Source: Bedellia somnulentella (Eukaryota > Arthropoda > Insecta > Lepidoptera > Bedelliidae). Taken from it: a stretch of 64,000 nucleotides of DNA. The stretch covers positions 2,666,001 through 2,730,000 of the forward strand of contig OY755198.1 in assembly GCA_963576735.1 (NCBI GenBank), read 5' to 3'. The notes beneath the pieces were generated by a model that made no database searches, was not told the DNA's origin, and saw only the letters and a program-made list of their open reading frames with translations. Every line of letters starts with the position of its first letter. Position 1 is the first letter of the stretch. Positions 5,401 through 56,850 of this stretch are shown here, piece after piece. The position numbers were made by a program, and so were the translations under genes.

Positions 5401-8400
5401 TACCTAATTAACTAGTTTTAATAATTTGTTCTCGGAAAGTTACAAAATGATTTAAAAAACCCCCGAAAAGAAATTTTATCTACAAAAAGGAAAGCCAGTA
5501 GAAGGCGCTATGACAAAATATAATACAACCCAGAACTAATTCGGATTTGAAAAAAAAACAAATAAAATAACTTGTAGAGAAGGAAAAATAATCGAGTATT
5601 TTTTTTTCGTTGTCTGTTTTTCTCCAGGCTGTATCTCATAAACAGTGATAACTAGAAAGCTGAAATTTTCACAAATGACGTATTTCTGTTGCCGCTATAA
5701 CAACAAATACAAGTAAAAAATGGATTTTAAGGGGGGCTCCTTATAATAAACGTGTTTTTTTCCGTATTTACATACATACATACATACATATGCTCACGGC
5801 TGTATTTCCCTAGAAGGGGTAACCAGAGCTAAGGAATTATAAATTCCTCAGCCACTTTTGGAAGTTGCGTGGGGAAAAGATGGTAAATATAAAGGTTTTT
5901 GGTGATGGGTCTCCAACCGCATCGCCCAAAAATCCAATAAAAAGCCCCAATACCCTTAGTCGCCTCTTACGACACCCGTGGGTAGAAAGGGGTAGCGACA
6001 TTCTAAGCCGGCACTACACGGCAATCTAAGCCGGCACTACACGGCAATTTTCCGTATTTGTTTGCTCAATATTAAAACGTTAATAAGTAGATACTTAAAA
6101 TTCTCACAGTATATTTACTTGTATATCACCTTTCAAAATAAATAATTAAATAACAGTAAAGTAAATATCAAAGGGGCTCTCATACAAAACCGTTATTTTC
6201 TATTATAGATGATAATACGGAACTCTTCGTTTATTCAATATTGGAAATAAAAAAAAAACAAAGTAGTGTAACAAACTCTTTAACATTTGCTGAATATGTA
6301 GAATTATTAGAAGCAGTAACAGAATTAAATTTTCTCATTTGTGTAATGAATGATGTCTTTACTAAGGTTTGTAAACCAGTTAAAATCTATGAAGATAATT
6401 CAGCAGCTGTAGCTATTCTAAGTATGGAAACTTTACAAAGAATTCTAAGCATATTAAAGTTCACTATCATTTTGTAAATTAAAATGTTTAGCAGGGAAGT
6501 ATACAAAATAGAGTCAGAAAATAAAATTGCAGATAACTAAATTTAAAGGAGTACAGTTCCCTAATTGATTAACTGTAGTACTTAAGAAGCTTTGATCTTA
6601 AGTAAGGAGGCGTGTTCGTGTATATATGTACATTTATATTGGCAACACTGAGTGAAGGAAGGAAGTAAATAAAGACTGACACATACCACACGTTAAGAAA
6701 TGTAGCTTAGAGAAAAACTTGTAACCAAAATTAAACTGTTCTTTTATTATATAAAAACAAAGTTAAAACAAGAGTATTCCGATTAATTATTTAACAGAAA
6801 CATTGTAGTAATAAAAATATTTTAGATACATTGAACATCCATCGCGAATATTGTCATTTCTCTGTTCCCAAAATCGATTAGAATTAGAATCGAATACAAC
6901 TATCTATGTAGGTACAACACATTTTGCTTAAAATGACAAAAATATGACAATAGCTACCGTACCATGTACCTGATTGACGGGTGAAAATATCGTTCATTTT
7001 GATGTTCATTGCGTGTTTTAATAGACAAGCCATACTAGATAGCTTTGTAACTAAAAGCGGCAATGTATTATAAATTAAGCGATATACACTCGTTTGAAAG
7101 TTTTTCTGTGTAAAACCACAACGAACACGAAATAATTGATTTTGCAATAAAAACCACATAATCTAATAATAAAGTGACCTACCGATGAAAGGAAATCTTT
7201 CTATTAATTAGTCCCGCTTTATTTAGATAGTTTTTGCAACTCAATACGGCACAATTAGGCATTTTTTATATTTAGCTTGACATCTGTCACCGAGAACGTT
7301 CGAGCACGGACTCAATCAAATGGCGATAAACTAAGATAATTTAACTCAGTTTTTACACGCGAAGTATATGCACTTGCGGCATCTATTCAAATACATGTCT
7401 GTGGTGCCATTATTTTTCCACCTACTGTGACGTCACATGAGCAATTTAGTGATGGCAACTCCCCGTCAGCGCGTAAACGATTCAATCGATTATATTCGAA
7501 TGCATCGACAGACAAATGATAAATTGACAGAAGAATGATTAATCTAGAATTATACCTGTTTTTTAATAACGCTATTATTCTCATGGTCTCATTTTTATCC
7601 TGAACAACTCTTCCTACATTATTTTCCTCCACCACTACATCTTCTCGGAGAACAACGATCTAAATCAGTGAGTTAATGAGTCAGTTAGTCAGTGAGTAGT
7701 TCAATAGCCTTTAATATTATATTAACTTGTCCTTATTGATAACCTACCTAATTAACTAGTTTTATTAATTTGTTCTCGGAAAGTTACAAAATGATTTAAA
7801 AAAACCCCGAGAAGAAATTTTATCTACAAAAAGGAAAGTTGTATTTGTTTGCTCAATATTAAAACGTTAATAAGTAGATACTTAAAATTTTCACAGTATA
7901 TTTACTTGTATATCACCTTTCAAAATAAATAATTAAATAACAGTAAAGTAAATATCAAAGGGGCTCCCATACAAAAACGTTATTTTCTATTATAGATGAT
8001 AGTACGGAACTCTTCGTTTGTTCAATATTGGAAATAAAAAAAAACAAAGTAGTGTAACAAACTCTTCAACATTTGCTAAATATGTAGAATTATCAGAAGC
8101 AGTAACAGAATTAAATTTTCTCATTTGTGTAATGAATGATGTCTTTACTAAGGTTTGTAAACCAGTTAAAATTTATGAAGATAATTCAGCAGCTGTAGCT
8201 ATTTCTAAGTATGGAAACTTTACAAAGAACTCTAAGCATATTGAAGTTCACTATCATTTTGTAAATTAAAATGTTTAGCAGGGAAGTATACAAAATAGAG
8301 TCAGAAAATAAAATTGCAGATAACTAAATTTAAAGGAGTATAGTTCCCTAATTGATTATAATTACTGTAGTACTTAAGAAGCTTTGAACTTATGTAAGGA

Positions 8401-11400
8401 GGCGTGTTTGTGTATATATGTACATTTATATTGGCAACACTGAGTGAAGGAAGAAAGTAAATAAAGACTGACACATACCACACGTTAAGAAATGTAGCTT
8501 AGAGAAAAACTTGTAACTAAAATTAAACTGTTCCTTTATTAAATAAATTAAATAAAAACAAAGTTAAAACAAGAGTATTCCAATTAATTATTTAACAAAA
8601 ACATTGTAGTAATAAAAATATTTTAGATACATGGAACATCCATCGCGAATATTATCATTTCTCTGTTCCCAAAATCGATTAGAATTAGAATCGAATACAA
8701 CTATCTGTGTAGGTACAACACATTTTGCTTAAAATGACAGAAATATGACAATAGCTACCGTACCATGTAGCTGATTGACAGGTGAAACTATCGTTCATTT
8801 TGATGTTCATTGCGTGTTTTAATAGATAAGCCATACTAGATAGCTTTGTAACTAAAAGCGGCAATGTAATATAAATTAAGCGATACACACTCGTTTAAAA
8901 GTTTTTCAGTGTAAAACCACAACGAACACGAAATAATTGATTTTGCAATAAAAACCACATAATCTAATAATAAAGTGACCTACCGATGAAAGGAAATCTT
9001 TCTATTAATTAGTCCCGCTTTATTTAGATAGTTTTTGCAACTCAATACGGCACAATTAGCCATTTTTTATATTTAGCTTGACATCTGTCACCGAGAACGT
9101 TCGAGCACGGACTCAATCAAATGGCGATAAACTAAGATAATTTTACTCAGTTTTTACACGCGAAGTACATGCACTTGCGGCATCTATTCAAATACATGTC
9201 TGTGATGTATGTACTACACAAGATAGTAGTCGTCAGTCTGCCAACCCCCCTCTAGACTAGTGTGGTGGAATAATACCAAAACACCCTATAAAGGGTAGAC
9301 TCGAGCCCCTCGCAATGCCTCGTTTGGGACACACAAAACAATAGTTAGAATGTTATTGTTCATGAAAACCTCATGTGGAGATTATTACTATACATACATA
9401 CATACATATACTCACGGCTATAAATCCCTAGATGGGGTAGCCAGAGCTAAGGAATCAGAAATTCCTCAGCCATTTGGAAAGTTAAGTGGGGAAAAGATGG
9501 TAAAATAAAGGTTGTTGGTGATGGGTCTCCAACCGCATCGCCCATAAATCCCTTTAAAGCCCCAATACCGTTAGTTGCCTCTTACGTACACCCGCCGGAA
9601 GAATTGGGGTAGTGCTATTCTAAGCTGACACTACAAAGCATATATAAAATAAAGGATAAATAAAGGAGAGAAATATTTCGACACTAGCGGGAACCGAACC
9701 CTCATTTCAATGACATTTTATTATTATTTAGACGGTGACATGTACCCGGAGGTTGCGGCTTCGATCCTCGCTAGTGTCGAAATTTTTCTTTCCTATATTT
9801 ATCCTTTACATACTCACGGCCATAAATCCTAAAATGGGGTAGCCAAAGCTTTAGAGTTCACTCCTCAGCCACATTTGGCAGTTTATTTATTTAATTATTT
9901 ATTTATTCATACATGATAACCATCATTACAGGCGCAGCCTAATGCAATGGCATCGAAATACATATCAACTTATAAAAAATATTAATATTAATTTATCAAC
10001 ATTATTGAAAAACAACTAATTCTAACTTATATGTAATTTAATAAAGCTTAAAGCTGTGTAGTGTCGGCTTAGAATAGCACTACCCCATTTCTTCCGGTGG
10101 GTGTACGTAAGAGGCGACTAACTGTATTGGGGCTTTTGAGGGATTTTTGGGCGATGCGGTTGGAGACCCATCACCAACAACCTTTATTTCACCATCTTTT
10201 CCCCACACAACTTCCAAAAGTGGCTGAGGAATTTCTGATTCCTTAGCTCTGGCTACCCCTTCTAGGGATTTATAGCCGTGAGTATATGTATGTATGTAAT
10301 TTAATATTTAATTTATTCACTTGATGGGGACACATACATACATATACTCACGGCTATAAATCCCTAGAAGGGGTAGCCAGAGCTAAGGAATTAAAAATTC
10401 CTCAGCCAATTTTGGAAAATTGAGTGGGGAAAAGATGGTAAAGTGAAGATTGTTGGTGATGGGTCTCCAACCGCATCGCCCAAAAATCCCTTAAAAGCCC
10501 CAATACCGTTAGTCGCCTCTTACGTACACCCATCGGTAGAAACGGGATAGTGCTATTCTAAGCCGACACTACACGGCGTATGGGGACACGATGGTAGAAA
10601 TAAAGTATCATTGGTGATGTGTGTCCAACCGCATCGCCCAAAACCTCCATACCCTTAGTCGCCTCTTACGACACCCGTGGGTAGAAAGGTGTAGTGACAT
10701 TCTAAGCCGACACTACACGGAAACAATCCTATATTTAACAATATTAACTATAGATTATACCTTCCTCTTCAGCATTAACTTTAGTACTTTTCTCCAATTC
10801 CTTAACATCAGGTTTTTCATCACTGCTAATCTCTACTATATCTTGTTGTTCTTCTTTGATGAGGACATCTGATGATGATGATGAGTCATCCATCACCGAA
10901 CTAGATTGGACTGGTTCTGAAATGGTCCATTAAATAAATATAAACGGACATATTATACATAGATCAAGTTAGCTCCAATAATAAATAAATATAAGAAAAA
11001 TTTCGACACAGGCGGGGATCGAACCCCCGACCTCGGGTATACGCCCCCGTAGCTCTGCCATTGAGCTACCGTGTCAATGGCTGCCAGCGCGAAATTCTTC
11101 TATACTTTATTTCTAGTAGTGTTTGCGTTCCCTACCTCCGAATTTTTTACAAATTTGGAAGGCCGCTTGTCTACCTTTTCAGATACAATGCAAATGTTGT
11201 CACATAATTTGAATGTTTTTGTTCATGTGAACCTCATGTGGGGATTATTATTACCAATAAATAACGGAAAGAAAAAAATCGACACCGGCGGGGATCGAAC
11301 CTGTGACCTCGGGTAATCGAAATTTTTCTGTTCTTTATTTATTAGTAACTAGCTGACCCGACAGTCTTCGACCTGTCACAAAATTTTAGTTTTCCAAAAT

Positions 11401-18680: not shown

Positions 18681-19971
18681 CGAGGGCTGCTATTTATGTA
18701 TCCGGAACTGGCCACTTACAGAACAATAATTTAAAAAGTAATTACATCATTTAAAAATAGAACTCTTTAGCTTTAGAATACATTTATTTTTATGTGACTG
18801 TCAATTGTTTTCACATCGTAGCGTCATTTTGAAAATTGCGTGTCTTCACCACCATGGATTTAACTCGTGAACATTTTCGTGCCATGATTTTTTACGATTT
18901 TCGGCGTGGTCTAACTCAAAAACAGTGCATCGATCAGCTTACTTCAACTTTTGGGGATGAAGCACCCTCAAAGACCACTGTGTATCACTGGTTTAGCGAG
19001 TTTAATCGTGGACGATCTAAGCTTACTGATGAAATTAAAGAAGGTCGCCCTAAAACGGTCGTTGTACCTCAAAACATCGATGCTGTCCGGGAACTAATAA
19101 CTCAAGATCGTCATGTTACATATCGTGAGATAGAGGCATCTCTGGGCATTAGTATGACGAGCATACATAAGATACTTCATGAACATTTAGCTGTAAAAAA
19201 AATTTGCTCCCGTTGGATTCCGCACAACTTGAGTATTGATCAAAAACAGGCTCGTGTCGATTGGTGCAAAGAAATGTTAAAAAAATACAACCGTGGTGCG
19301 TCAAAAGCTGTTTATAATATCTACACAGGTGACGAATCTTGGATCTACGCTTACGACCCCGAAACTAAGCAGCAGTCCACGGTGTGGGTGTTCCAAGATG
19401 AGCCGAACCCAACAAAAGTTATTCGTGCAAAAAGCACATTGAAGCAAATGGTCGCTTGTTTTTTTGGTATAAATGGCCATGTAGCTACAGTGCCTTTAGA
19501 GAATCGTAAAACTGTTAATTCGGAGTGGTATACGACCATTTGTTTGCCGGAAGTCTTTGAACAAATAAGAAAGACTAACCGACAACGTAGAATCATTCTG
19601 CATCACGACAATGCTAGCTGTCACAGGTCGGCCGTCACAACTCAGTTTTTAGAAGCTCAAAAGATCGAATTGACAGGTCATCCGCCGTACAGCCCTGATT
19701 TGGCACCCAATGATTTTTATTTATTTCCAAATGTGAAGAAAAAATTACGTGGTCAACGTTTTTCGAGCCGCGAAGAGGCAGTCGATGCGTTCAAAATGCA
19801 CGTTTTGGAGATACCTCAGTCTGAGTGGAAAAAGTGCTATGAAAATTGGTTTCAACGCATGCAAAAGTGTATAGATCTGAGCGGCGAATATTTTGAGAAG
19901 CAATAAAACCATATTAATTGATATATGTTTGTTTCTTTTTTTTATTCCGGATACATAAATAGCAGCCCTCG
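18681..19971 (+). mobile_element. intact mariner transposon
   Basis: 1291 bp with 27-bp perfect terminal inverted repeats starting CGAGGGCTGCTATTTATG, flanked by TA on each side (18679-18680, 19972-19973). Contains an uninterrupted transposase. It is inserted in LINE-derived DNA and looks young. Confidence 0.95.
18854..19906 (+). CDS. mariner transposase, DD34D, full-length
   Basis: 350 aa from the ATG in CACCATGG context; an in-frame TTG at 18836 is not a credible start in an animal. The N-terminal half has the paired helix-turn-helix DNA-binding region (KTTVYHWFSEF, then YREIEASLGISMTSIHKIL). It has the WVPHNL-type linker as WIPHNL. Catalytic residues are in TGDESW, HHDNASCH and SPDLAPND, with exactly 34 residues between the second and third Asp, as in canonical mariners (DD34D). 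Length matches the family's 340-355 aa. No stop or frameshift. It could be active; the subfamily was not assigned. Confidence 0.95.
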   Translation: MDLTREHFRAMIFYDFRRGLTQKQCIDQLTSTFGDEAPSKTTVYHWFSEFNRGRSKLTDEIKEGRPKTVVVPQNIDAVRELITQDRHVTYREIEASLGISMTSIHKILHEHLAVKKICSRWIPHNLSIDQKQARVDWCKEMLKKYNRGASKAVYNIYTGDESWIYAYDPETKQQSTVWVFQDEPNPTKVIRAKSTLKQMVACFFGINGHVATVPLENRKTVNSEWYTTICLPEVFEQIRKTNRQRRIILHHDNASCHRSAVTTQFLEAQKIELTGHPPYSPDLAPNDFYLFPNVKKKLRGQRFSSREEAVDAFKMHVLEIPQSEWKKCYENWFQRMQKCIDLSGEYFEKQ

Positions 19972-20796: not shown

Positions 20797-21204
20797 CAGC
20801 GTTGCCAGAATGTTACAAAAGTAACATTTTACGTTACTTTTGACCCTCTCATGTTACTTCCATGTTACATGACTCAATATGTTACTTTTGTGTTACTTTT
20901 CAGATTTTTGAAGCTTTAGCAATAAAAGTTACCTCTCTATTATTGGCTATGTGAATAATAGTACAAAGTAAGTTGAAGTAATAATTTATTGAATGTGAAA
21001 TTGTTCATGAAGAAGTACCGCTCTTGTTTTTCTCAATAAAATAAGGTGATGACCTTTTTTTTTTTTTAGCTCAAGTGTTTTATGTTTTATGCGCGCGCAT
21101 ACTAAATCTACGAGTGTTTCACAGGTCATGTTACTTTCCTCGTGTAAATGTTACTTTTTGAGCTGTGTCGTGTTATATTTGACCATCTGGCACTGGCAAC
21201 ACTG
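20797..21204. mobile_element. hAT-type MITE with 8-bp target duplication
   Basis: Ends CAGCGTTGCCAG and the reverse of CTGGCAACACTG. AGATAGAC at 20789-20796 and 21205-21212. Many subterminal GTTACTTT motifs. A right-end fragment recurs at 48494-48594. Confidence 0.85.
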
Positions 21205-48493: not shown

Positions 48494-48594
48494 TCTACGA
48501 GTGTTTCTCAGTTCATGTTACTTTCCTCGTGTAAATGTTACTTTTTGAGCTGTGTCGTGTTATATTTGACCATCTGGCACTGGCAACACTGATG
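48494..48594. mobile_element. right-end fragment of the 20797 MITE
   Basis: CTACGAGTGTTTCTCAG to CTGGCAACACTGA. Confidence 0.8.
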
Positions 48595-48884: not shown

Positions 48885-50415
48885 ATTATTATTATTTTTT
48901 TTATTTTTTTTTTGTTTACCGGTGGGGAAATCCTCATAGGATCCCCCGTCGCTCGAGAGAGCGACGGGGGTATGTCGGACTTTTACCGACTAAAACCCCA
49001 CCGGTTCGGTGCTGCTGGCCCTGCGGCCTGTGCGGCGTCACCATAACTTGTGTGAAGAAGAAGAAGTGCGGCTGAAGGCCGCCCTGGCGGCGAAAAGGAG
49101 TGTACCTAAGCTAAGTCGGATAGGGTGAGTATAAAAATAAAATAGACTCTAGTTGAGTCTGGTGTGACTCTAAAATTAGTGTTAGGTTCTACGACCTCGC
49201 CGGCGGGGTCGGTGTCTGGAGTGATAGTTGTTGTTGGTGTGACCGCGAGCGCCGGTGGCCCCTGAGGCCTCGAGCTCGCGGGTGGTGTCGTCGTCGGGAT
49301 CCGAGAGCACGCTACGTGGGCGTCGAATCCCGGCGTCCGGGGAAATCGTGTAGTCGAGCGAGGCTCGAAGTAAGGGGTTGGGGTGATCAGGGATCTTATC
49401 AAAGTATCTACGTGAGATTTGTTTGAAATGATCCCTGATAGTATTGAGTCCTAAGTCTCTGTGGAGATCATAGTTCCTAACATACCAAGGCGCCCCTACC
49501 GCCTTGCGCATGAACCTATTCTGTATCACCTGGAGGCGGTGTATCAAGCCCTCTCTGGCGTGTGCGAACGCAACACTACCGTACGAGAGGACCGAGCGTA
49601 TACATGTTTTGTATAGTGTAACTTTGTGACGCAGTGGTAACTTACTGCGAGCACAAAGCATCGGTGATAGCCTATTCAGGACGAATGAGGCTTTGTTGCG
49701 TATGTATTTGATGTGGTGTGACCATGTAAGCCGGGGATCAAAGACAATACCGAGGTATTTGGTCTTTTTCACCCACGGAATAGGTGTACCGAAGAGTTGA
49801 ACAGGCGGAGGCGGATCGTGTGAGGCGCCTCCCTTCCGAAAGAGCATGGCTGCGCTTTTGGAGGGATTAACCTCGATCCGCCACTTCCTGAACCACTCTC
49901 CGAGTTGTGTTACGGCTCGCTGAAGGCGAAGCCGTATGAAGTTGTGGTTGGGGTGACTCGTGTAGAGTAGTGTGTCGTCTGCAAAGAGTGTTAACTCCAC
50001 CAGCGGTGTACGCGGGATGTCGTTAGTGTATATATTGAAGAGTGTGGGTGAGAGCGTAGAGCCCTGTGGGACTCCCGCGTGTATGGGGTGGTGTTGTGAG
50101 TGGGCGTCCTCCACTCTGAAGCGGAATCGGCGATCCGACAAGTAGTCGCGGACTATAGCCACGAGTTTGTCTGGCATACCGATCTGGTATAGCTTGTATA
50201 GCAGACCGTTATGCCAGACTTTGTCAAATGCCTTAGCCACGTCAAAGAAGACGGCGCCCGTCTGTTTGATGTATGTGTCATTGAATCCATCAAGCACATG
50301 CTCGGTAAAGCGATGTGCTTGTTGGACGCATGAGTGTTGAGCCCTGAACCCGAATTGTTCGTGTATCTGAATGCCGCTAGTGTGCAAGTAGTGTCTGATC
50401 CTAGTAGAGGTGTGT
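48885..50415 (-). mobile_element. 5'-truncated jockey-like LINE
   Basis: RT ORF, GC-rich 3' UTR (48925-49181) with the GTCGCTCTCTCGAGCGACGG hairpin, and an A-rich tail at 48885-48920. Confidence 0.8.
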
Positions 50416-50552
50416 AGGTCCGGATGGAGTGGTATCCCCGGAGTGGTATCACTACATTTAACGGATGGATGTACATCCAATGGCAATCGGTTACCATTCC
50501 ATCGGAATGGTATGGATTGGCGGGATTGGCATGGCGGACAACGGTGCGGCAT
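49182..50552 (-). pseudogene. jockey-like LINE reverse transcriptase, N-terminally truncated
   Basis: Recognisable from about residue 35 (TRIRHYLHTSGIQIHEQFGF). RT blocks FFDVAKAFDKVWH, GVPQGSTLSPTLFNIYTNDI and LTLFADDTLLYT (FADD catalytic pair) are intact, followed by KTKYLGIVFD and the C-terminal IRSVLSYGSVAF. No stops through residue 456. The endonuclease domain and 5' end are missing, so it is not autonomous. The first 30-40 residues come from flanking DNA. Confidence 0.85.
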
Positions 50553-51070
50553 CGCGATTTATGCAGCGATTGGTTGATTACATGCTTGCAAGCATGTGTG
50601 CGAAGAAACAAATGAAAGAGATAGAAATAGCGCTTAGATCGGCGGGCGGCACAAGCGATTATGTTATTTATTACATTGCAGTAAAGTTGATTTTGGTTCT
50701 CTTATTGTTGACGTTAGGAATAGTTGATATATTTCTCTTTTGAAATATTCTAATTTTAAATAAAATAAATGAAATATTCTTACAATTTCTTTATTCAAAT
50801 CAAAAGAATCAAATTTCGTTCTTTCGATAATTGTTTGTTAAAGGCAAAAATAAACTAATTGTTTTGTAGTCAGCATGACTTTTTAATAAAAATATTGTCA
50901 TCATACTAATATTGATCATTGAATGAACTCTCCATTGGAGACTGATACATATATGGTTCTGCTTCCTGCGTGTCATATACTGAGGACTGTACTCTCACTC
51001 AACCCAGTACCAGATCCCTTCCAGTTCCACCATTCCTGCATAGGTAAACATTTTTTACCGTTAACAGGAC
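50416..51070. other. DNA flanking the LINE, unclassified
   Basis: 50465-50743 has a short open frame without recognised motifs. Otherwise AT-rich. Confidence 0.3.
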
Positions 51071-51099
51071 CCCGGACTAGTGTTGCCGATCGATAGCCC

Positions 51100-51430
51100 A
51101 CTATCGATAGCCTTTCGATAGCCCACTATCGATAGCCTTTCGATAGACTATCGATACTTTATACAAAAACAATAGTATCGATAGTTATCGATAGTGTCGA
51201 TACTATCGATACTATCGATACAATCGATCTCTCTTTTAGTGCAATACTATCGGTAAACCACAATACTATCGATAGTATCGATAGTATTGATTCTGGGCAA
51301 CGATAAAGTATCGATACTATCGATAGTATCGATAGTATTGTGTTTCAATATTACATGACTATCGATAGTATCGATTCTATCGATACTATCGATAGTTTTG
51401 TTCAATCGATTGTTACTTTTTTATCAATAG
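51100..51430. repeat. left subterminal TATCGATA array
   Basis: At least a dozen TATCGATA or one-off copies, many overlapping as TATCGATAGTATCGATA. Confidence 0.93.
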
Positions 51431-51684
51431 TATTGATTGCATTTATACTAGCAGGTCGGTAGGTTGAACAGGAGTTAGTACCGACAGCTAATTTTAGTTA
51501 TTATACTAGTACTTCTCTACCTGTCGTACACAATCGGATATCTTGTTTATTACATGTGTGTAGTGGGTAGATAAAAAAAGTGTTCAATCTCATTTGGTCG
51601 TTTTATCTGGGTAATATTAGTTGTACGTGTATTCTGGTGATCGGCGTTGTATCAGATTGTGTTTTTTATAAATAAAAATATAAA

Positions 51685-54545
51685 ATGGATTCAATTATTT
51701 CTGAGAGTGAACCAAATAAAAGGAAATCGTTGATGTGGATTTTTTTTGATAGAAAAACCGACGGTGATACTAATAAAGTTATATGTAAATTTTGCAAGGC
51801 TGAATTTAAGTACTGTTATAATACCAGCAACATGAAAGATCATTTAAGGCGCAAACATTCAGATGTTTTAATAAGTTCCCCGCCATCTTCTCACTGCAGT
51901 GAAAATCGTGTAGAAAATGTTAAAAATCAGCAAGAAACATATTCTGTAAATTCAAGTAGGAAAAAAATGCTTGATATGAAATTTGCAAGAATGGTAGCGA
52001 TTGATATGGAGCCTCTGCGTTTTTCCGAGCATGAAGGATTGAAGAAGTTTGTCAAAGCACTTGATAGTAGATATGAAATGCCTGGAAGGACTACCCTGAG
52101 TACCAAACTCTTACCGAAATTATATGCAGAAATGAAAATTAAGTTATTTGATATACTTAAAAATGTAAATCATTTGGCTATCACCACTGACGCATGGACA
52201 TCAACAAGTAATGAGGGGATTCTGGCAGTGACTGCACATTTCATATTCAAAATGCAGCTGCAATCTGTTCTATTAGCGGCAGTAGTGTTACAAGGTCATC
52301 ACAACGCGGAAAACATAGCTACTGTGAGTAATTGTTTTGATATATTTATTAAATAGGTACATCCAACGAATTAGTAATTATATAGAAACATAACTCCGTC
52401 AAAAAATGGTTCATCAAAAAGTAGTACAAATGGGCGGGGCGATAAAAGTAGTACTCAAAAGATCCTGCTCGCACTCGCACAGTTGGACATTGCCGTTTCA
52501 CTCGAACGTTTAACGTTCTAAATAAAGATGTACCTGAAATGAGTATATGTGATAACTGAAATCCGGCTTTGCAATTCTGTCAAGTAATTTGTTTAGTCTT
52601 GTCAGAATTGTCAATTTCATTGCTTGACTTTGGAACCATTTTTCGGTGGACTTTGTATGGGAGTTATGTTTCTATATAATTACTAATTCGTTGGGTACAT
52701 CCAATGATATTATATATAAGCTGAAGTAGATGCGTCTTAGAGCGCTCACCCATGGCAATCGAAAAACAAGGTAATTCCCTTGTTTGTCTTTAGTTGCTTA
52801 CGCATCTGTCATTCATTACGCATGCCAAAATATGTAACTATCCCTTATTCACTTAAATGTTTACTATTGTGCTTGCTCTGTCTTTCGTGCATACTAACCG
52901 ACCACGGCAAGTTGACCAGAGATCTATTATATATAATAGTGTATTACTGTAGTAATGCCAAAAAGGAAATGCGTTTTGTACTGTTAGAACTTGTCTATTA
53001 GTATATGTCATTGGGTACATCTATTTATTTTATTACACTATACAGTATACTCATATTTTATAAAAAAAGTCTACTGTTGAGTTTTTAATATTTCTTCTCA
53101 GCAGATACCATTTAGAAAGTACTGGTAGATTAATTTTTGACGTGTAAGAGCGTCCATTGTGACCTACTTACTGAATAAATAATTTCATTTAAAAGAAATT
53201 ATAAGAAAATTTTATGATGAAATAGCATTTTTAGAAACTGACAAGACAGACGTTTTAGATTTTGTTTCAATGGGTCGTTTTCCAAAGCCGTTCCTCCAGT
53301 AGTATTCTAAACTGTCGACAGATGGCCAGGTGAATCGATAATAAGTGAAAAAAATAATTTCAGGTCATTGCGTCGGTTTTGGATGATTGGCAATGCCGAA
53401 ATAAAGTTGTGATTATGGTAACCGACAACGCTTCAACAATGACAAAAGCGGCAGAGATATTGAAAATAAGACACTTACCATGTTTCGCCCACTCTTTAAA
53501 TTTGGTAATAAAACATACTTTTCTGGACCCACAATGCATTCTTTTAAAAGACTTGGTAGATAAATGTAAGGCAATAATTTCATTTTTTAAGCATAGTACA
53601 TTAGCTACAGACCAATTAAAATCCATACAAAATGATTTGAAAAAGACTCATTTAAAACCTATTCAAAGTGTGGACACAGGGTGGAATAGTACATACAAAA
53701 TGATGAAGCGGATTGGTGAAATCAGAGATGAATTAACACTTACTATATCTAAAAATTTGAATGCGCCAAAAAATCTTACAGATGATGAATACAAATTTTT
53801 AGAGGAAGTGGTAAAAATATTACAGCCATTTCAAGAGTGTACAGAAGCTGTGTCGGGGGACACATACGCAACTATTTCTATGATAATACCTTTGATAAAA
53901 GGTTTATTGTTACGTTTCGCTCAACTGGACAAAGAAGTGTTATTGGAATCCAGCAGAATAGTCCTTGAAACAATAAAAAACCTTATTGTGGCGAGAATAA
54001 AACCTTATGAATGCCGGAATCCTTGCATAATAGCCACACTTCTCAACCCTCATTTTAAAAAACAGGGTTTTAAAACGGATACAGAAATTGAAAGAGCATT
54101 TAACGTGGTACAAAAAGAATATTCTTCTTACTTGATAACAGACAACAGAAACATATCCAAATCAGACCTTGCGGAAGCTGGGACGTCAAAAGGAGTAACA
54201 GTACGGACTAAAAAACCGAAGTTGAATTTACTTTCTTACCTTCAAGACTCACATTCCACGTCCTCTAGTTCCACTGCAGACGCAATCATTGATATCAAAC
54301 AGTACCTTTCTAAACCAATCATAGATACAACAGAATATCCAATAGAATTTTGGTGTCATAGTCGAAACAATTTAAAATACATTGCTTTAAAATATCTGAC
54401 TATCCCTGCAACCTCCGCGCCGGCTGAGAGATTGTTTTCGCAGGCCGGGCAAGTTATAGTTGATCGTCGAAATCGTTTAAGCGGAGAGCGCATAAATGAA
54501 CTGCTTTTTATCAAACAAAATCACACACTGTTGGATCAGGCATAG
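51685..54545 (+). CDS. hAT transposase, ZBED type, two exons
   Basis: Exon 51685-52323 and exon 53364-54545 join at phase 0 (ENIAT|VIASVLDDW) to 606 aa. BED finger at residues 19-60 (WIFFDRK, CKFCKAEF, HLRRKH). The DDE-type core has TTDAW (residue 169) and MVTDNAS; CFAHSLNLVI is the hAT CxxH motif; the C-terminal dimerisation region has TSAPAERLFSQAG. No stop or frameshift was found. Donor GTGAGT and acceptor TTTCAG flank a 1040-bp intron filled by two MITEs. Possibly functional; insertion of the MITEs makes the intron long but does not break coding. Confidence 0.9.
52364..52693. mobile_element. MITE 1 in the transposase intron
   Basis: 330 bp, 34-bp perfect TIRs from CAACGAATTAGTAATTATAT, 8-bp duplication GGTACATC at 52356-52363 and 52694-52701. 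Confidence 0.92.
52702..53013. mobile_element. MITE 2 abutting MITE 1
   Basis: 312 bp, ends CAATGATAT and inverted, and the same GGTACATC at 52694-52701 and 53014-53021. A different family from MITE 1. Confidence 0.82.
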
Positions 54546-55109
54546 AAATTTTTAAACGTCATACATTTTTTCTTATTTTTTTTTTGTGACGAACATTTTA
54601 TAAATCTTTAAATCCTAAGTCAAATCATTTTAACATTATCATGTTAACATGGATGATTCATCCAGGCATGTCATTAACAAAATAAAAAAAAAATGCTGCT
54701 TAAAGTCAAAATTTATGTGAAATTAAAATTCAAAACGCACCACAATTACCTCAAAATGGTGGCGCTTTTCCCTCCATCGTGCGTGATGCCTCATAGTTTT
54801 TACTAAGTCTACACATTTTTTTAATTCTTCAGCTATCCAGTGGTATAAATACATTTTGTGTGGAGATGATAGATGTGTACTGCAACACCAAAATCAGTTT
54901 TTGGGTTGACAACCAGTATGGAACCAATTTCAAAGACGTATTCAAGTCAAGAAAAAAGGATAATAAATCAAAACTAATCGACAAAAAAAAAGTTTTTATC
55001 GTTTATTTGCTCAGTATTGATCAGTAATATTGTTGCGGATAAAAAGGTGGCTAATCAGTAGCGTATTAATTAACATAAAATCAAATCAAAGGGAGACAAA
55101 TTATTAGTT

Positions 55110-56329
55110 TTATTGTTTTTTCACTTGATCACGATGTTTATGTTTCAATGAATCTATATAATTAAGTATGTTGATGTAAGCTTTAGAACGCATACACGGT
55201 GGCAAAAATTGTAGCTCGCCAATTAGAAGATTTCCAAAATAATAATTTCTTTTGTCAAGATCTGTTTCGCAAATACAATCAACACAAATGCTATTTGTTT
55301 TATTTTCTTCCTCTTTGTCACTTGTTATTATTTCATCTTCTTGTTGCTCTATAATGTTATTACACTCTTTATCAGAATCCATAGTGTTATTACACTCTTT
55401 TTCTTCAATTGGGGATATATAATTGCCTTTTCTGGCCCGTGTGCTGCAATCATTTAACTCTGATTCTGATATCGATGAATCTTTTGTAGTTGTTTTGTAA
55501 CGTATCTTTGAGGGCCATAGTATAGATTGAGAGTAATCGTAGTCTTCTTTATCTGATTCAATATATTTTCTTTTTTCTAAAAAAAAATTAAATTTATCTA
55601 TACTAATGTTATAAAGAGATAGATTTGACTGTTTTTTGCATTTAATAGGCTCCAAAACTACTGAACAGGTTGATGCGAAAAAAACAGAGCGATTGTAGGG
55701 AGGAGGGGAAGGTAATAGGAGGAGAAGAGGGGAGGCGTAAGGTGAAGAGACGGGAGAGGGATGAGAGGAAGGGAGGGCGGTAAAGGGAGAGCTTCGAGGA
55801 GGATGGGAGAAGGAAAGGTGATGGGAGAAAGGAGATTGGGGGCAGTAAAAGTTAGATTTTTTTTTATATTGTTAAAAGCGCGGGCGAAACCGCGGTCAAA
55901 CACTAACGCTAGACACTAAACTTTGGACGGCCACGACCACGACCAGTGGCCGCAACCACCAGATTAACTAAAGAAACCATATGAAGTAATATTAACTTCA
56001 CGCACTTGGCCGCAACGGCCAAACTGTACTACTGGTCGTGATTGTGGCTGTCTAGTGCGCTAGGTAACTAAGTCAATGTAACCGAATCGAAGGCCGAAGC
56101 GAGGGCGAATCTCTAAAACATATTTTTTTAAAACTAAAAATGTATTATGAAAACAATCAAGGTAAATATATTAAAACATACGAGACTGCGATTCTACAGC
56201 ATCTTCTGTGAAGAATGGTTGGCTGTCTGATGAATCTGAAAGTATAAATAATTACAAAATATGTATCTGTGTGTTATTTGCCTATTTTAACAAATTAGTT
56301 TAAATAAATAATTCTTTCTACTTACCCAT
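55110..56329 (-). CDS. second gene of the hAT element, three exons, antisense
   Basis: Exons 56329-56326 (ATGG), 56235-56182 and 55576-55110 join in phase to 174 aa: MDSSDSQPFFTEDAVESQSQ, then KRKYIESDKEDYDYS and an acidic middle. Donors GTAAGT and GTATGT, acceptors CTTTCAG and TTTTTTAG. The C-terminal 40 residues (YFGNLLIGELQFLPPCMRSK, then AYINILNYIDSL) resemble a BESS protein-interaction motif; this is a weak motif judgement. A CDCICxxD-like CxxCxC precedes it. It lies wholly inside the transposon and converges on the transposase. Function unknown. Confidence 0.62.
55590..55905. mobile_element. repeat inserted in the second gene's intron
   Basis: GCGGGCGAAACCGCGGTC on one side, CCAAAACTACTGAACAGGTT and TAATGTTATAAAGAG on the other: a common lepidopteran LINE/SINE tail type. 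Confidence 0.5.
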
Positions 56330-56454
56330 TTTGCATATTCGCAAAAAAAATAACTGGATATAAAATTATATTTTTCCACTCATCACCCACCTTTATGCCT
56401 TACTTTCTTAACTAATACTATTGAAATAAATGTAACAATCGATCATTCAAATCT

Positions 56455-56680
56455 ATCGATAGTATCGATAGAATCGATACTATCGATAGTTATGTTATAT
56501 TGAAAAGCGATAGTATCGATACCATCGATAGTTAAGTAATATCGAAAAGTGATAGTATCGATGTATTGTGGTTAACCGATAGTATTGCAATAAAAGACAG
56601 ATCGATAGTATCGATATTATCGATACTATCGATAGGGCTATCGATATTATGGTGTTTTTAGATTAAAACTATCGATAGTT
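56455..56680. repeat. right subterminal TATCGATA array
   Basis: Same motif, roughly ten copies. Confidence 0.92.
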
Positions 56681-56850
56681 TGGCAACACTACCCCGGACC
56701 CATTCCAGTGCAAAAGACTGGGGTCCTGGATGTACATCATTCGAGTCGGACATGCATCCGGATCTGCGTCTTGAAATAAACCGGACCTACACATCTCTAG
56801 ATCCTAGCGAGGATTAGTCGCTCATAGATCTTTCCTAACGAGCTTAGTAG

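Follow-up and report, generated by a model that had tools for sequence, protein, structure and literature searches.

A hAT transposon of Bedellia somnulentella with mirrored TATCGATA arrays as likely docking sites of its predicted transposase

Structure of the element

The window (the whole stretch of DNA that was analysed, 64,000 nucleotides of the Bedellia somnulentella genome) contains a hAT transposon of 5,614 bp, at positions 51078-56691, of which both ends are intact. Its features are listed here in the order in which they lie.

51070..51077, no strand: target-site duplication, left copy, CCCCGGAC, same as 56692-56699
51078..51087, plus strand: left terminal inverted repeat, TAGTGTTGCC
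51089..51410, no strand: left TATCGATA array, 15 exact TATCGATA and 19 ATCGAT
51685..52323, plus strand: predicted transposase exon 1, open frame with GT donor at 52324
51730..51861, plus strand: BED zinc finger, residues 16-59, zinc ligands C34, C37, H53 and H58 (Pfam zf-BED)
52324..53363, plus strand: transposase intron, GT..AG, containing a MITE-like inverted repeat
53364..54545, plus strand: predicted transposase exon 2, running to the stop codon, with the hAT dimerisation region at residues 524-599
55110..55576, minus strand: second gene, predicted exon 3, with the conserved CxxC...YYFGNLLIGELQFLPPCMRS.AY block (from relatives and splicing prediction)
56182..56235, minus strand: second gene, predicted exon 2, encoding DSQPFFTE (from splicing prediction)
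56326..56329, minus strand: second gene, coding part of predicted exon 1, with the start codon (from splice sites and relatives starting MD)
56438..56676, no strand: right TATCGATA array, 9 exact TATCGATA and 14 ATCGAT
56682..56691, minus strand: right terminal inverted repeat, TAGTGTTGCC, 10 bp
56692..56699, no strand: target-site duplication, right copy, CCCCGGAC

As expected of a hAT transposon, the element carries a perfect 8-bp target-site duplication (CCCCGGAC on either flank) and short terminal inverted repeats (TAGTGTTGCC, 10 bp), the length of hAT terminal repeats being given as 10-25 bp in PMC3942097. The first-pass annotation had placed a hAT transposon at 51079..56691; the classification and the right end stand, and the true start is one base earlier, at 51078. 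The window holds another hAT-like element, with near-identical tips and a different end repeat.

The predicted transposase has 606 amino acids encoded in two exons, and its frame is unbroken. Relative P0004 carries extra residues at the position of the intron, as would be expected of an intron left unspliced after exon 1. The N-terminal BED finger matches PF02892 (E = 3.4e-9, 37 bits for a cut-off of 20.6) and the dimerisation region matches PF05699 (E = 2.6e-12, 46.8 bits for a cut-off of 21.4), which bears out the BED-finger hAT transposase predicted in the first-pass annotation. Furthermore, the catalytic residues and the C-x2-H and W positions are recognisable, with D169, D234, E568, C253, H256 and W320 aligning with the transposase of Hermes, the hAT element of the house fly. 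The arginine aligned from Hermes next to W320 is replaced by G319. Since 29 of 32 relatives have an arginine beside this conserved tryptophan where our copy has a glycine, this copy of the transposase may be impaired.

The nearest sequence relatives, hAT-like transposases that carry ZBED1-like or ZBED4-like annotations, come from Lepidoptera and from the spider Araneus and fall into one clade in the tree; the Pectinophora relative matches at 67% over 69% of the query. Hermes shares the hAT core and the dimerisation region of the transposase (E = 5.8e-17), the general fold of the BED finger and the 8-bp target-site duplication, whereas the position of Hermes R70 is occupied here by D52. A Foldseek search with the first exon of the transposase gave a single match at E < 0.001, which was Hermes (2bw3). 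The model of the BED finger resembles, at modest Z, the fingers of Hermes and of ZBED1 and ZBED2, and the first 70 residues match 2ct5 (E = 5.6e-5). ZBED1 and ZBED2 have a BED finger with a similar model but are domesticated hAT genes of vertebrates, whereas the present protein belongs to a transposon.

A second predicted gene, absent from the earlier description of the locus, occupies 55110-56329 on the minus strand, with three exons encoding 174 amino acids. The C-terminal block of its product is strongly conserved across Lepidoptera: the exon 3 block found 10 relatives (E from 2.9e-28 to 5.9e-17), and the DSQPFFTE of exon 2 also opens the Chilo relative P0033. The protein has no Pfam or NCBIfam family match, and none of three C-terminal pieces matched a Pfam family at E of 10 or less in a search in which the HMMER filters drop weak matches. 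Weak Pfam matches, among them NinX and TdeIII, fell below cut-offs, and two capsid proteins found at E of about 0.44 in a profile search of solved structures aligned over a lysine-rich stretch, which we took as chance. In the model of the protein only two helices are predicted confidently (135-146 and 158-180); they bring BESS to mind and prove nothing. Our guess is that the protein serves as an accessory factor binding DNA or the transposase. A second conserved gene, if it is part of the element, would be unusual among known hAT transposons.

Other copies of the element, or ends of its relatives, were sought in several collections. Across 202 kb of host sequence, taken from 21 stretches, blastn at 1e-5 gave no match to the element, and the same 202 kb contained no convincing match at the protein level. 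Viral contigs yielded 4 pattern matches in a protein-based search and 33 candidates in a profile search, and genome contigs yielded 53 candidates in a profile search, none of which was confirmed; nor was any of the 21 candidates that the second protein found in viral contigs. The pattern TATCGATANTATCGATA occurred in 56 stretches of viral contigs, where lone pairs were put down to chance.

The TATCGATA arrays

Both subterminal regions had been described in the first-pass annotation as dense palindromic TATCGATA arrays, and the counts agree with this description. The left end (383 bp) has 15 exact TATCGATA and the right end (272 bp) has 9, with none in the intervening 4,959 bp. The two ends together thus hold 24 exact sites, and the remaining 58.4 kb of the window holds one. 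When each end was shuffled 2,000 times with dinucleotides preserved, TATCGATA occurred on average 0.25 (left) and 0.22 (right) times, with a maximum of 3. For the whole window, the 25 observed copies compare with a mean of 1.23 and a maximum of 6 in 100 shuffles. No other palindromic 8-mer comes close in the ends, the runner-up being present once.

The most frequent 8-mer of any type in the ends is ATCGATAG (33 occurrences, strands merged) and the most frequent 10-mer is ACTATCGATA (23 occurrences), so that the repeat unit somewhat exceeds the 8-mer of DREF in length. The two ends are homologous to each other in inverted orientation (119 nt at 87% and 70 nt at 91%), and the mirrored runs of TATCGATA come within about 10-15 bp of either tip. 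Sites with at most one mismatch form runs with 9-bp spacing, most of them separated by 31-44 bp. Steps of 9 bp are what slippage or unequal exchange would leave, and they make up part of each array, which raises the question of whether the arrays are a functionless by-product of local tandem duplication. We regard this as very unlikely: the arrays are restricted to the two ends, with nothing of the kind in the interval between them, and TATCGATA is also spaced by 10, 14, 27, 33, 35 and 44 bp, beyond what tandem steps account for.

Docking sites and possible promoters

By analogy with the solved structure of Hermes, in which the BED finger docks on repeats beside the hAT tips, the TATCGATA arrays are probably binding sites of the element's own predicted transposase. 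Hermes likewise has short repeats beside its tips, which its BED finger binds. Its repeat is AAGT, where here it is TATCGATA; BED docking in Hermes takes place on the left end only, and the passages of the Hermes paper that were consulted mention no second gene. In the mechanism that we propose, the half-sites TATCG/CGATA at both ends would be occupied by the BED fingers of several transposase subunits. The 10-bp tips would thereby reach the catalytic core, where they would be cut and joined to a new site, as happens in Hermes through its AAGT repeats.

The last exact TATCGATA of the left array lies 290 bp from the ATG of the transposase, and the first exact TATCGATA of the right array lies 125 bp from the ATG of the second gene. 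Since the start codon of an inward-facing predicted gene follows each array at a distance of 125-290 bp, the arrays may double as promoters. In maize MuDR, two convergent genes are each transcribed inwards from one of the terminal repeats, which contain transposase sites as well. The likeness is one of layout only, the MuDR transposase belonging to a different superfamily. In an arrangement of this type, the array sites may drive or autoregulate both genes.

The same layout could mean that host factors of the DREF or BEAF type use the arrays as promoter elements and so activate both genes in dividing cells, while the transposase reads only the 10-bp tips. One predicted gene does face inward downstream of each array, and TATCGATA is the Drosophila Dref site and contains the BEAF-32 word CGATA (PMC7368049). 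In addition, mutation of putative BED sites of Hermes that lie outside the outermost 50 bp is reported to have had only a slight effect, and a host factor was proposed. Yet 24 mirrored sites near both tips exceed what promoters need, they occupy the usual place of hAT subterminal repeats, and the explanation presupposes a DREF or BEAF protein in the host; we consider it rather unlikely.

The boundaries, the arrays, the transposase frame in two exons that match zf-BED and the hAT dimerisation region, and the opposite-strand frame conserved in other Lepidoptera are present in the sequence itself. We describe the locus as a hAT transposon with an 8-bp target-site duplication, in which the mirrored TATCGATA arrays are likely to be docking sites of the predicted BED-finger transposase and would at the same time lie at the 5' side of two predicted genes that face inward, as their upstream regions. 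A broader version is decidedly doubtful: a two-gene hAT element in which TATCGATA would be at once docking array and promoter of both convergent genes, self-regulating movement and expression, with a second protein of a new lepidopteran family aiding the transposase, and with the insect BED regulators that read CGATA or TATCGATA descending from such end-readers.

Relation to DREF and BEAF-32

The Drosophila proteins DREF and BEAF-32 are BED-finger proteins with the sites TATCGATA and CGATA; they differ from the present protein in being cellular regulators. It had been proposed that binding of the transposase to its ends would show directly that the TATCGATA specificity of DREF was inherited from end recognition by hAT transposons of this kind. 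DREF has a BED finger and is considered a domesticated protein (PMC3606216), and the present element combines a BED-finger transposase with TATCGATA ends. The wording was nevertheless too strong, as proven binding would fit convergence equally, and a short palindrome could arise twice independently. Moreover, the motif fails to separate DREF from BEAF-32: TATCGATA alone is not diagnostic of DREF because it includes the BEAF-32 word CGATA and because the repeat unit here exceeds 8 bp. Among the relatives found, the nearest are mainly lepidopteran transposases and none bears the name of DREF; a protein search restricted to the BED region (residues 8-75) gave 5 candidates, none of which scored. 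We hold descent of the DREF specificity from such elements to be very improbable. According to PMC3606216, moreover, ZBED1 is no close relative of DREF, although it bears the name hDREF.

The further suggestion that such elements scatter DREF-type sites found no sign in the small sample of 202 kb of host genome, where TATCGATA occurs 3 times against 4.1 expected from dinucleotides or 7.2 from base composition. A search of the open-licence PMC literature returned no paper joining DREF, a hAT transposase and TATCGATA, none linking TATCGATA to transposon terminal inverted repeats, and none linking DREF, BED and a domesticated transposase.

Many domesticated regulators derive from hAT elements, and little is known of how the DNA word of the BED finger changes between transposon families. 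The clear, dense and palindromic predicted site makes this element a clean test object, with one BED finger, one word and both ends. If TATCGATA is bound, this pair of BED finger and word would be directly comparable with those of DREF and BEAF-32.

Boundaries and repeated ends of the element

The hAT element described in the first-pass annotation is indeed present, but starts at 51078, one base earlier than proposed there. Its hAT identity is borne out by a perfect target-site duplication, by 10-bp terminal inverted repeats (TAGTGTTGCC) and, as shown below, by the predicted transposase.

Features of the element
51070-51077 and 56692-56699: target-site duplication CCCCGGAC, 8 bp, perfect
51078-56691: hAT element, 5,614 bp
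51685-52323: transposase exon 1 (predicted)
53364-54545: transposase exon 2 (predicted)
56329-56326, 56235-56182, 55576-55110, minus strand: second gene, predicted, three exons, 174 aa, with GT..AG upstream extension

The dense palindromic TATCGATA reported for both ends was recovered as 15 exact sites in 383 bp on the left and 9 in 272 bp on the right, with none in the 4,959 bp separating the ends and one in the other 58.4 kb of the window. Dinucleotide-preserving shuffles (2,000 per end) yielded means of 0.25 (left) and 0.22 (right) and a maximum of 3. Among palindromic 8-mers of the ends TATCGATA ranks first with 24 occurrences, the runner-up having 1. The most frequent 10-mer is ACTATCGATA (23, strands merged) and C or G flanks TATCGATA on both sides at 20 of the 24 sites; the repeated unit is therefore larger than the DREF 8-mer. 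When sites with up to one mismatch are included, many lie at 9-bp spacing in runs of two to five, separated by gaps of mostly 31-44 bp. Each end is a copy of the other in inverted orientation, with matches of 119 nt at 87% and of 70 nt at 91%.

TATCGATA is the Dref site and contains the BEAF-32 word CGATA (PMC7368049), and BEAF and DREF are described as domesticated (PMC3606216). It had been proposed that the TATCGATA specificity of DREF was inherited from end recognition by a hAT transposon, an origin that we consider very improbable. In 202 kb of host sequence TATCGATA shows no excess (3 against 4.1 expected), and no additional copy of the element was found there.

The transposase and its relatives

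Joining both exons through GT..AG sites gives a 606-aa open frame. The relative P0004 carries ~29 additional residues where the exons meet, as an unspliced intron would give. Two Pfam models exceed their cut-offs, zf-BED (3.4e-9) and Dimer_Tnp_hAT (2.6e-12), while DUF659 (5.4e-8) falls marginally under its own. C34, C37, H53 and H58 match the BED pattern, upholding the predicted protein as a BED-finger transposase. Among solved structures the best match is Hermes (5.8e-17), followed by the ZBED1 BED finger; catalytic and neighbouring positions of Hermes align with D169, D234, C253, H256, W320 and E568.

A protein search scoring the 7,997 candidates with most words in common returned at least 32 relatives. 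Residue 319 is G here and R in 29 of 32 relatives (the others being one gap, one L and one H), and because of this substitution the copy may be impaired. In a tree of the transposase and 25 relatives (the seven proteins P0025 and P0027-P0032 excluded), it pairs with a Pectinophora protein (100/99) within a lepidopteran group, and a spider (Araneus) protein falls in the wider group around it. A lepidopteran host is accordingly likely.

An inverted-repeat pair in the transposase intron (52340-52717, arms 58 nt, 81%) is probably a nested MITE and has GTACAT repeats on its flanks; the word GGTACATC recurs near 53010.

A predicted second gene inside the element

An unexpected second gene, missed by the first-pass annotation, runs convergently with that of the transposase. 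Its open frame (55110-55655, opposite strand) has 10 relatives among 42 candidates (E 2.9e-28 to 5.9e-17), including proteins of the Lepidoptera Chilo, Helicoverpa, Colias and Euphydryas. The 11-row alignment holds 28 invariant columns, nearly all within a C-terminal block, CxxC...RNYYFGNLLIGELQFLPPCMRS.AY..IL.YID, and the N-terminus gained by the extension, DSQPFFTE, is also present in the Chilo relative. No Pfam or NCBIfam model scores above cut-off, and the structure model is poor apart from two C-terminal helices. The predicted gene represents a conserved lepidopteran protein family without a Pfam or NCBIfam match. The Helicoverpa relative represents five contigs, which suggests mobility; in Euphydryas the relatives of the two proteins lie on contigs that differ in length. 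Within its long intron, the second gene has an inverted repeat (55926-56052, arms 22 nt, 86%) and a purine-rich stretch (~55690-55840).

The transposase start codon is 290 bp downstream of the left array, and that of the second gene 125 bp downstream of the right array. As each array thus precedes one inward-running gene, both may serve as promoters too. That they are used purely as a promoter for host factors seems unlikely to us, if less so than the proposed origin of DREF specificity.

Other elements of the window and end recognition

By eye, an open frame at 18836-19906 (356 aa) resembles a mariner-type transposase, and a 456-aa frame at 49182-50552 (minus strand), close to the left side of the 51078-56691 element, has reverse-transcriptase-like motifs. 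The long similar stretches at 6580-6650 and 8370-8442, ~1.8 kb apart and with TGGCAACACTG near the matching place in each, are a large direct duplication within the window.

The window holds a second hAT-like element:
20797-21204: non-autonomous hAT-like element, 408 bp

A further fragment of its family terminates near 48591. The 408-bp element is flanked by an 8-bp duplication, AGATAGAC, and its tips are CAGCGTTGCCA and CAGTGTTGCCA, the latter differing by one base from the right tip of the 51078-56691 element. In its ends the repeated word is not TATCGATA; GTTAC occurs there 10 times (raw count). Near-identical tips combined with different end words would fit a BED finger that reads the ends in a family-specific manner.
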